From Clostridia bacterium (GTDB taxonomy: Bacteria > Bacillota > Clostridia > Oscillospirales > RGIG577), in NCBI GenBank assembly GCA_017513095.1, contig JAFWDJ010000007.1, positions 103,733 to 167,732 on the forward strand: a stretch of DNA of 64,000 nt, written 5' to 3'. The translations under genes were made by a program, and so were the position numbers. This document shows positions 25,846 through 54,169 of the stretch, piece after piece (the first letter of the stretch is position 1; the number at the start of each line of letters is the position of its first letter). A model generated the notes under the pieces. The model made no database searches. It was not told the origin of the DNA and saw nothing but the letters and a program-made list of their open reading frames with translations.

Positions 25846-26226
25846 TTAATCTTTTTCGTCGAAAAATTCAACAAGCTCGCCTAACGGGCCTACGCAGAAC
25901 GCCATTCTCGCGCGGCACGGCGGATCGGCCTCTATCACCATGTCGTTAGGCTCGATAAATATCTTGTAGCCCGCAGCACGCGCCTTTTCGATAAGGCCGT
26001 CAACGTCGTCGGCCGCGAAAGCGAAATGTCTGAGCGCGCCGATGGCGGGCGTTCCTTCGCCGTTGCACATGATCTCGATGCAGCCTGCGCCGGTATCTAT
26101 CATAACGCCCTCAGCCCACGTGCGAACGATCTTAAGACCCAATACGTCGGTATAGAAGGATTTTGCCTTCTCAAACGCCTCTTTCGTACCGCACTTCATG
26201 TTTATATGATGTATGCCCTTAATCAT
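25846..26226 (-). CDS. VOC-family (glyoxalase/bleomycin-resistance fold) protein
   Basis: 126 residues forming one two-module VOC domain. 'IKGIHHINMKC' opens with the first metal-ligand His, 'FYTDVLGLKIVR' is the usual second strand and helix, 'LRHFAFAADDVDGLIEKARAAG' starts the second half, and 'GPLGELVEFFDEKD' ends with the conserved Glu ligand. Such proteins isomerise, open or bind small molecules with a divalent metal. Lactoylglutathione-lyase-like or sugar/aromatic-ring functions cannot be told apart. An AGGGGTGAG ribosome binding site precedes the ATG. It is transcribed alone towards the partner-switching operon, with its own terminator. Confidence 0.88.
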   Translation of the reverse strand: MIKGIHHINMKCGTKEAFEKAKSFYTDVLGLKIVRTWAEGVMIDTGAGCIEIMCNGEGTPAIGALRHFAFAADDVDGLIEKARAAGYKIFIEPNDMVIEADPPCRARMAFCVGPLGELVEFFDEKD

Positions 26227-26275: not shown

Positions 26276-26599
26276 TTATACGTCCGAAAAGGCATTCTCG
26301 TCAAGCGTCTCAAGAAGAAAGCTTACGGGGCGAAAGCCGTCGTTGCAGGAAATCATGGCCGAACGGCTGTTTTTCATCCAGCCGTCGTAAAAATTACTGC
26401 CGCCGTGCGCGAGAGTCATAACGAACGGCGACATGCTCTCCCACGCGCTTTCGCACATTCCGGCGGGTCTCTTCCACCCCTCGGCGATAAAGACCTGCCC
26501 CACGCGCATATCGCAGGCGTGCTCTATCGGATTTTCGTATTTTTCTATAAGATCGTCGTAGCGCGCCGTTTTCATCACCGTTATTCTGACCTTTTTCAT
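26276..26599 (-). CDS. TIGR04076-type small protein
   Basis: 107 residues from the ATG at 26599, chosen because AAAGGAGAGA lies 9-18 bases upstream; the frame stays open for 15 further codons. The sequence ('KKVRITVMKTARYDDLIEKY', 'FIAEGWKRPAGMCESAWE', 'MISCNDGFRPVSFLLE') matches my recollection of the small Clostridia family TIGR04076, which has no established function. Two cysteines (in ACDMRVG and GMCESAW) and one near the end (ISCNDG) are the family's notable residues; a metal or redox role is only a guess. It ends 50 bases before the VOC gene, so the two may be co-transcribed. Confidence 0.75.
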   Translation of the reverse strand: MKKVRITVMKTARYDDLIEKYENPIEHACDMRVGQVFIAEGWKRPAGMCESAWESMSPFVMTLAHGGSNFYDGWMKNSRSAMISCNDGFRPVSFLLETLDENAFSDV

Positions 26600-26644
26600 T
26601 CCGGCCTCTCTCCTTTTAAATAATCCGCACCGCCGACAAACCAA

Positions 26645-27487
26645 AATGAAACCGTCCGAACTAATGTCCGGACGGTAATATTTATCGGGCGTAATATCGT
26701 CAACTTATCTTAAATCAAGATAATTTATAATCAAATCGACATTCTTGCTGTCCGCCAATCAAACCCAGCCGCGCAATTCACAAAAGATAATCACAAAATT
26801 CTAAACACTTAATGTCTCGCAACACAGATATTAGTCTGAAAACTATACTTTAGATATACATACGGCACAGATCCGACTCTGATAAGTAAGGCGACAACAA
26901 AATCAGCCAAACGACCCACGCTCGTGAAAACCACCTATACTCCGCTAAAGCGCCGTCTCCACAAAGGCTACTGTCCTCGCTTGCGGCAAAGCCGATAATC
27001 ACATCACGATACAACGAAACTTTCGATTTCTTTGGCGACTACTTCGCAAATCTCAAGCCTGCAGCTTTCTGCTGCATTACACTTATCGTCTAATCGTGTT
27101 TTGCACGGGCGTATTATTCTGTTTTTAAATTAATATCGCTTTTTAATACCCGAACTCTTCATTCGGGCTGATCCGTGTATCGCAAATGAATTTGACCTCC
27201 AAAGACATTTTCCGTACCTTCCTACGCAGACCGGATATCCCTTTCAGCGGGGACACCTCAACAAGTATTAGCATTCTTTATCCGCATTCTCAATGTGTAC
27301 GACAAGCAAACGTCTTCGCTATATAATCAAATCAAGCGATATCACGCACCGAAGGACGATACACGGATCGACTTTGACGTTTCTTTGTTCACCGGAATCA
27401 TCCCCTTTCTGATAACTCAAGAGCTTTGTTTCTTCCAAGATCGCTTACTTCTTTTCGATCTTCTTTATTATTCCCCTCGCTCTTTGT
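26645..27487 (-). ncRNA. Candidate large structured non-coding RNA (about 840 nt)
   Basis: No credible protein frame exists here on either strand, yet the region has its own promoter (27494-27522) and a terminator-like hairpin (26651-26676) and is rich in self-complementary segments. The strongest is a perfect 13-bp long-range pair: 27357-27369 with 27170-27182 (GATCCGTGTATCG / CGATACACGGATC), enclosing about 187 nt. Perfect local hairpins lie at 27149-27167 (CCCGAA/TTCGGG) and 27060-27076 (TGCAGC/GCTGCA). Size and lack of ORFs recall the OLE, GOLLD and ROOL classes of large bacterial RNAs. I cannot assign it to any of them, and I do not see tmRNA or RNase P hallmarks. Confidence 0.6.
26651..26676 (-). 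terminator. Terminator-like hairpin at the end of the candidate RNA
   Basis: ACCGTCCG pairs with CGGACGGT over a 10-nt loop. On the minus strand it is followed by TTCATTTTGG, an imperfect T-rich tail. Confidence 0.55.
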
Positions 27488-27493
27488 ACTTGT

Positions 27494-27522
27494 ATGTTAG
27501 CATATAATAAACAAAAAGTCAA
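27494..27522 (-). promoter_or_regulatory. Promoter of the candidate large RNA
   Basis: On the minus strand TTGACT (27522-27517), 17 bases, then TAACAT (27499-27494). No start codon with a ribosome binding site follows. Confidence 0.6.
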
Positions 27523-27539: not shown

Positions 27540-28112
27540 TTATGAATTTTTCACAATGGATTTTCCTGCCATGCTAAAAATCGCATATAAGGCGTATCCG
27601 ATCGCGCATCCCACTGTATTTAGTATAACGTCGTCTATGTCGGTCGTCCGGTCAAAAAACGGAAGCTGGCATATTTCTATTAAACACGAGAACGCTGCGC
27701 CCGCGATAAGCGTTTTCCAAAACGCGCGAAGCCGCGGGAACGCCGCCGGCCACACTATACCGACCGGTATGAACAGAAGTATGTTCCCGATCTCGTTTAT
27801 TATAAAGTTTATCTTATTGCCCCACAGCTTTTTTATATAATAAAGCGGCTCGAGGTTTATAAGATAATCCTTCATCCTGTCGGGATCGAACACAAGCGGC
27901 TGCACGTATCCCCCATCTCTGAACGTGGGAAAGAACGTGAAGCGCACGACGAGGCATACTGTAAAAAGCGCCGCAAGCTGCCAAAGCTCGCACTTTGGGT
28001 CAAATTTTCGCTTTACAATGCATGCGGCCGCTCTTATTATCAGCCATATTATGATTATTCCTGCCATGACCGGCAGAAAAGGAATTTCAACGGTATTATT
28101 CGTGTCTGTCAC
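27540..28112 (-). CDS. VanZ-like integral membrane protein
   Basis: 190 residues with about five membrane helices. 'NEIGNILLFIPVGIVWP' in the middle and 'RTTDIDDVILNTVGCAIGY' near the C-terminus are the typical VanZ-family segments. The family is named after the low-level teicoplanin resistance protein; most members are of unknown role in the envelope. The start is a GTG at 28112 with a weak AAAGG upstream, and no better ATG is seen. A minus-strand promoter (TTGGCA-N18-TATATT, 28158-28129) lies just upstream. The neighbouring gene is a wall-polymer deacetylase. No vanA-type cluster is nearby, so a resistance function should not be assumed. Confidence 0.85.
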   Translation of the reverse strand: MTDTNNTVEIPFLPVMAGIIIIWLIIRAAACIVKRKFDPKCELWQLAALFTVCLVVRFTFFPTFRDGGYVQPLVFDPDRMKDYLINLEPLYYIKKLWGNKINFIINEIGNILLFIPVGIVWPAAFPRLRAFWKTLIAGAAFSCLIEICQLPFFDRTTDIDDVILNTVGCAIGYALYAIFSMAGKSIVKNS

Positions 28113-53340: not shown

Positions 53341-53760
53341 CTATTTCTTCTGAAACTCGCGTACCTTTCTTGACATATCCTCAAGCTCCTCCTTCGAAAG
53401 CTCAGGCAGGCGCTCCAGCTTATTTATGAACGCCGAAATCGTCTCCTTGTTGCGAAGGTCCGTCATCTGATTGTAGAAGTTCACGATAACGCCGGTAACG
53501 ATTGCTATCACGATGACCGCGCTTACGGAAAGCACGACCGAAATTATCCTTGTAATCGTAGTTTGCGCGATAACATCTCCGAATCCCACGGTCGTGACTA
53601 CGGCATAGCAGTACCACAGCGCATCGCCGTAAGTATGTATCTGCGGCTCCGAAAGAAGTATAATAGCGGCGCACGCGAAAAGCTCTATCAAAAAAACCAA
53701 CCATATTTTAACGGCTCCCGTCCGCTTTAAGACAATGCCAAGTACGTGTAACTGTTTCAT
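53341..53760 (-). CDS. Two-helix potassium channel
   Basis: 139 residues. Membrane helices at about 18-38 and 74-96 flank a pore helix and the selectivity filter 'VTTVGFGD' (about 56-63), the hallmark of K+ channels. A charged cytoplasmic tail (about 97-139), likely a coiled coil, follows the inner helix; no RCK/TrkA-N domain is present, so gating is not obvious. It would act as a tetramer in the cell membrane. It has its own promoter (TTGATT-N16-TACAAT on the minus strand, 53864-53837) and terminator. Confidence 0.92.
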   Translation of the reverse strand: MKQLHVLGIVLKRTGAVKIWLVFLIELFACAAIILLSEPQIHTYGDALWYCYAVVTTVGFGDVIAQTTITRIISVVLSVSAVIVIAIVTGVIVNFYNQMTDLRNKETISAFINKLERLPELSKEELEDMSRKVREFQKK

Positions 53761-53836
53761 GATGTGTCACGCATCCTTTCCGAAAGCGACAGAGTAAAAG
53801 CGCCGCCGAGACCCACTCATTTTTATTCATATTTTA

Positions 53837-53864
53837 ATTGTATACGACTAACGGTAAAAATCAA
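53837..53864 (-). promoter_or_regulatory. Potassium channel promoter
   Basis: TTGATT at 53864-53859 and TACAAT at 53842-53837 on the minus strand, 16-base spacing. Confidence 0.6.
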
Positions 53865-53924
53865 GCTTTTAGCGAAAACGGGCGCAATTATTAGCTGTTT
53901 TGTTTTTTCTTTAAGGTATCCGAG

Positions 53925-54048
53925 GCCGGACAGCGCCGCTCGCGCTGCTCGCTTTGCATAAGTTCCGCCAACCGCTCCCGCTTCGCCTTAGGCTCGCGCT
54001 CTCGGGGCGTCACTTATCTCACCTCCGGTTCTCGTCCGCCCAAACGGC
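53925..54048 (-). repeat. GC-rich non-coding segment with a tRNA-Leu 3'-end-like fragment
   Basis: No gene. On the minus strand GTCCGGCCTCGG with ATACC after it (about 53940-53925) repeats the end of the T arm and acceptor of the nearby tRNA-Leu (AGTCCGGCCTCGG then GCACC), about 160 bases downstream of it. The stretch between is GC-rich and hairpin-prone. Confidence 0.45.
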
Positions 54049-54082
54049 CAAAAAAGAGCATCGCAAAAGCGATGCTCTTTTT
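54049..54082 (-). terminator. Terminator after tRNA-Leu
   Basis: AAAAAGAGCATCGC pairs with GCGATGCTCTTTTT over an AAAA loop. Confidence 0.92.
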
Positions 54083-54169
54083 TGGTGCCCGAGGCCGGAC
54101 TCGAACCGGCACGGGATTGCTCCCACGGGATTTTAAGTCCCGGGCGTCTACCAATTCCGCCACTCGGGC
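54083..54169 (-). tRNA. tRNA-Leu (TAA)
   Basis: 87 nt including CCA, with a class II long variable arm. The acceptor stem is GCCCGAG/CTCGGGC. The anticodon loop CTTAAAA gives anticodon TAA, reading UUA. The T arm is GCCGG-TTCGAGT-CCGGC. Confidence 0.95.

Follow-up and report, generated by a model that had tools for sequence, protein, structure and literature searches.

The largest ORF-poor gap in our window, the 64,000-nt stretch of clostridial DNA analyzed here, probably holds a stand-alone gene. Its product would be a large noncoding RNA of ~845 nt with multiple domains, most likely a structural RNA that acts in trans. Sequence comparison revealed that the segment is conserved as a unit, has conserved structure on the predicted strand, lacks a coding signal, and is present as a single copy in a fixed place. 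At this level, the interpretation offered by the first-pass annotation, a large structured noncoding RNA gene, is supported.

The predicted RNA is flanked by promoter and terminator sequences

The gap, put at ~840 bases in the first-pass annotation, was confirmed. It extends from the end, at 27540, of a gene for a VanZ-family membrane protein (27540–28112, minus strand) to the start, at 26599, of a gene for a TIGR04076-family protein (26276–26599, minus strand), which is followed by a gene for a VOC/glyoxalase-family protein (25846–26226, minus strand). Within the gap, conservation and structure delimit a predicted RNA at 26643–27487 on the minus strand, with ends that are approximate. Another gap without a long ORF, of ~320 bases (53760–54082), adjoins a tRNA gene at 54086–54169.

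A promoter scan identified the minus-strand promoter TTGACT-N17-TAACAT described earlier. This sigma-70-type promoter (27494–27522) consists of a −35 box (TTGACT, 27522–27517), a 17-nt spacer, and the extended −10 element TGCTAACAT (27502–27494), in which TG lies one base 5′ of the −10 box (TAACAT, 27499–27494), and it is retained in both relatives in which we found the RNA. The RNA would start at about 27487. Elsewhere in the order, very similar promoters lie 5′ of tRNA genes and of protein genes. The promoter type seen here at 27522–27494, TTGAC-TTTTTGGTTATTATATGCTATAAT, whose spacer is conserved, occurs in several families of the order (loci L082–L087, around 1501–1545), with a tRNA pair downstream in L084 and protein genes downstream in the others. 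In addition, 29 bases matching the promoter region are present in two genomes of another genus (L005 and L006, around 1501–1529), upstream of a RidA-like gene but on the opposite strand. We had considered that the spacer might be an operator bound by a repressor, and no other close copy was found at a promoter in the genome. In other genera and families, tRNA and protein genes have the same sequence type as their core promoter, and we therefore dropped this idea.

The terminal hairpin was also confirmed. The intrinsic terminator (26643–26676, minus strand) has an 11-bp stem (26676–26651), invariant across the three species, followed by the U-rich tail TTCATTTT. The hairpin folds far better than shuffled sequence (z = −8.0), and a near-identical terminator is present elsewhere in the order. 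The 3′ end of the RNA also contains TTGACG and TATTAC separated by 16–17 nt (26704–26677, minus strand). This arrangement, which is invariant in the three species, resembles a weak promoter and could serve the TIGR04076 gene.

The whole unit is conserved in two related species

Using blastn against 147 genomes, we detected the complete segment in two further species, both congeneric. The second relative is a Clostridia assembly from dairy-cattle duodenum (JAFOLN010000034.1, locus L030), in which two contigs overlap in the first 145–150 bases of the unit and represent one locus. Conservation in relatives had been named as a check on the earlier interpretation, and the unit in all three species includes the promoter and the terminator, with the conserved block beginning at approximately the −35 box and reaching the U-rich tail. 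The RNA is as conserved as the neighboring coding DNA: identity across species is ~73% for the RNA, 72–73% for the VanZ gene, and 76% for the TIGR04076 gene. The spacer between the RNA and the TIGR04076 gene is unconserved: its length is about 43, 150, or 200 nt, and its sequence differs as well.

The RNA is present in a single copy, and its chromosomal place is fixed in the three species, with the order VanZ-like gene, RNA, TIGR04076 gene, VOC gene kept in both relatives. No phage genes lie beside the RNA, the neighboring proteins being ordinary chromosomal ones, and the nearest tRNA gene is more than 13 kb away.

Conserved structure is stronger on the sense strand and extends over several domains

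The strong internal pairing reported from the single sequence held in each of the three species, where folding of the sense strand gave z scores of −3.5, −3.7, and −4.1 relative to shuffles. The consensus fold of the three-species alignment reached −189 kcal/mol. In a null model in which the reference was shuffled with dinucleotides kept and the same substitution pattern was applied, the mean was −118.6 (sd 7.2), corresponding to z = −9.8 for the sense strand. The antisense strand gave z = −5.7; we count the better-than-chance folding of the antisense strand against the RNA-gene reading. Column shuffling gave z = −9.2 (sense) and −4.1 (antisense). With the same null, the neighboring genes scored −2.9 (VanZ), −2.3 (TIGR04076), and −0.6 (VOC), revealing some background folding in this genome, far less than that of the RNA.

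Covariation pointed in the same direction. Double changes that keep pairing were present at 20 of 215 pairs, as compared with a mean of 9.1 in shuffles, none of which (0 of 500) scored as high; these small counts come from three sequences of one genus and from a structure derived from the same alignment. When the partner strand was slid by 1–3 columns, paired cells fell from 95.5% to 38–45%, a control biased in favor of the structure because the structure was derived from that alignment. The best-supported helix (27317–27308/27210–27201) contains three neighboring compensatory pairs. Conserved helices of at least 9 bp numbered 10, compared with a mean of 5 and a maximum of 8 in 20 shuffles, but the longest conserved helix (14) was equaled in shuffles, and helix counts alone are not decisive.

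The structure can be divided into domains, all on the minus strand. The 5′ part (27395–27484; z = −2.8) consists of a helix, 27484–27479/27424–27419, in which one side varies while pairing is kept, and a hairpin at 27418–27395. Domain 1 (27170–27369; z = −5.3) is closed by a 13–14-bp helix (27369–27356/27183–27170), which comprises the perfect 13-bp pairing of GATCCGTGTATCG (27369–27357) with CGATACACGGATC (27182–27170) and one U-G pair. The 13-bp helix of the first-pass annotation is therefore present, but the domain that it closes measures 200 nt with both arms rather than 187. When this sequence was shuffled 200 times, a Watson-Crick helix of at least 13 bp arose four times; for the relatives, whose longest helices measure 13 and 14 bp, none of 200 shuffles reached that length. 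As the 13/14-bp helix is invariant, the proposed check of covariation within it argues neither for nor against it; the covariation that we detected sits in other helices.

Hairpin 2 (27148–27168; z = −10.5) varies in sequence with pairing mostly kept. It is followed by domain 3 (26911–27112; z = −3.5), closed by ACGCCCGUGC (27112–27103) paired with 26921–26911; domain 4 (26736–26910; z = −5.3); and a small A+U-rich hairpin with a nearly invariant stem (26705–26723). Several perfect local hairpins had been described earlier, and some of these, such as GCAGCAGAAAGCTGC near 27060–27075, were not kept in the relatives.

Long-range pairing may connect the two ends. The conserved strand 27373–27393 can pair with 26704–26688, forming a candidate 5′–3′ closure (27393–27388/26693–26688 and 27379–27373/26704–26698) that is nearly invariant. 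A competing 11-bp pairing of GCGUGAUAUCG (27347–27337) with CGAUAUUACGC (26699–26689) would be a pseudoknot. Separately, GATTTGATT occurs twice on the minus strand, at 27333–27325 and about 26735–26727, and is invariant in the three species. As both copies can pair with the AGTCAAATT-like stretch at 27197–27189, two folds compete.

Wider searches recovered only members of one genus

No Rfam 15 family reached threshold for the segment, for which searches at E values up to 10 returned a few far-subthreshold chance matches, and there were no Rfam matches in the copies of the relatives. In keeping with the failure of the first-pass annotation to match the sequence to a known class, the Rfam models for OLE, GOLLD, ROOL, HEARO, and raiA, which it had proposed to run, matched neither the segment nor its relatives. 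RNase P RNA was rejected as a candidate, as the copy in this genome is located elsewhere. When 394 genomes of the order were searched using blastn, we obtained, beyond the known relatives, only promoter matches and one terminator match. A covariance model of domain 1 recovered only the three genus members from these 394 genomes, and from 391 genomes of the class it recovered the window's own genome alone; a more permissive search, covering 39 genomes, returned weak matches, the best of which was in an apparently coding stretch. With a model of the 3′ part, the matches in the 394 order genomes were weak and mostly due to similar terminators, with one inside a hydrolase gene. Divergent relatives may have been missed, given the fast filters and three-sequence models that these searches employed, with the genus represented by three genomes.

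Exact-motif scans retrieved 21 GTDB contigs. Extended similarity was confined to L030, the rest matching the motif or a few bases more. In viral contigs, three patterns gave nothing and two gave isolated motif matches only, and phage and plasmid records contained no match to the RNA. The flanks of the TIGR04076 genes that we searched in other genera contained no such RNA. The RNA is most likely restricted to one genus; it has no entry in Rfam 15 and, as judged by model matches, does not belong to the OLE, ROOL, or GOLLD families.

Alternative explanations

The segment could instead act in cis, as a very long regulatory leader for the TIGR04076 and VOC genes, in which the folded RNA senses something and gates the terminator at 26676–26651. 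In all three species, albeit of one genus, both genes lie next to the RNA and share its orientation. Moreover, the ~43 nt between the terminator and the TIGR04076 start codon in this genome leave little room for a separate promoter of that gene, an arrangement that suits a leader better and keeps this model alive. However, the RNA's own promoter and terminator and the unconserved spacer argue against it, as do the TIGR04076 genes in other genera, which, where searched, lack the RNA. We also found no convincing antiterminator, as the terminator stem is invariant and its sole candidate partner is weak. Since regulatory leaders are usually far shorter than 845 nt, the length is also unfavorable, and we consider a leader unlikely. 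A trans-acting regulatory RNA that base pairs with target mRNAs, with structure serving mainly for stability and presentation, would be consistent with the promoter and terminator and with conserved stretches that are unpaired within local domains, such as 27393–27380. Yet antisense regulators usually need less size and fewer structured domains than are found here, making this explanation quite doubtful.

Two further possibilities involve protein-coding DNA. A frame of 16–19 codons (AAAGGGG ATGATTCCG GTG...TGA, about 27401–27342) is preceded by a purine-rich stretch and keeps its start and stop, uninterrupted, in all three species, raising the possibility of a dual-function RNA or small-peptide gene. 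However, its few substitutions are mostly amino-acid-changing, it matches no family, and it overlaps the invariant 13-bp helix, so structure explains its conservation; we regard its translation as improbable. The last possibility is that a decayed protein gene, an intron, or a mobile element occupies the segment; of these, decayed coding DNA and mobile DNA had been listed as potential refutations by the first-pass annotation. The one point of support is the weak match of the 3′ model inside a HAD-type hydrolase gene of another genus, which we rejected when comparison of the hydrolase protein with the RNA in any frame gave no significant match (best E = 0.49). Shuffled sequence yields open frames as long as the longest ones here, and Pfam searches with five stop-masked sense-frame translations from the three species gave no credible match (one chance match, E = 0.013), in agreement with the earlier description of the segment as ORF-less. 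No Rfam model for group I or group II introns, such as that for domain V, matched the segment. With no phage or plasmid match, a single copy, and conservation like that of its coding neighbors, we consider this last possibility very improbable.

Discussion

We favor a stand-alone structural RNA gene. We infer transcription, the exact ends, and a trans-acting structural role: the minus strand would be transcribed from the RNA's own promoter and ended at its own terminator, and modeling suggests that the transcript would fold into several structured domains, possibly gathered by pairing of the 5′ and 3′ parts. By analogy with other large RNAs, it would most likely act in trans, as the core of an RNA-protein particle or of an RNA-only assembly.

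The first-pass annotation noted a resemblance to OLE, GOLLD, and ROOL, which holds for size and style but not for model matches or for the phage and tRNA context of GOLLD and ROOL. OLE RNA, at about 600 nt, has an intricate structure (PMC9723947) and works with the membrane protein OapA (PMC12286853). Like OLE, the RNA described here is predicted to be a large structured RNA encoded by a chromosomal gene in anaerobic Gram-positive bacteria, and a membrane-protein gene adjoins it, a possible parallel to the partnership of OLE with OapA. Unlike OLE, it is longer, its neighbor is VanZ-like, and it gave no match to the OLE model at E values up to 10. Many GOLLD members exceed 800 nt, and their genes reside in phages and prophages, in many cases close to tRNA islands (PMC12286853). 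Our RNA has a similar length and multi-domain organization, but it has no adjacent phage genes, no nearby tRNA gene, and no match to the GOLLD model. ROOL RNAs are phage- or prophage-borne, and one of them, env-120, is a 659-nt RNA from cow rumen (PMC12286853). Although both are large and multi-domain, and one relative of our RNA also comes from cattle, the ~845-nt RNA is longer than env-120 and gave no ROOL model match. OLE, ROOL, and GOLLD form RNA dimers and cages (PMC12286853).

From sequence comparison, the RNA appears to represent a previously unrecognized class among the large noncoding RNAs of bacteria. Tentatively, we envision a class so far found in one uncultured Clostridia genus that forms a compact multi-domain particle, RNA-only or RNA-protein, and is chromosomal rather than phage-borne. 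Its invariant repeats (GAUUUGAUU twice, and two candidate partners for CGAUAUUACGC) might switch it between two long-range folds.

Bacterial noncoding RNA classes of such size and complexity number only a handful. Another class, unrelated to these and occupying a fixed place in the chromosome, would constitute a new test case for very large bacterial RNAs. It would also suggest that large RNAs can be confined to a single genus and hence be missed where searches require broad conservation.
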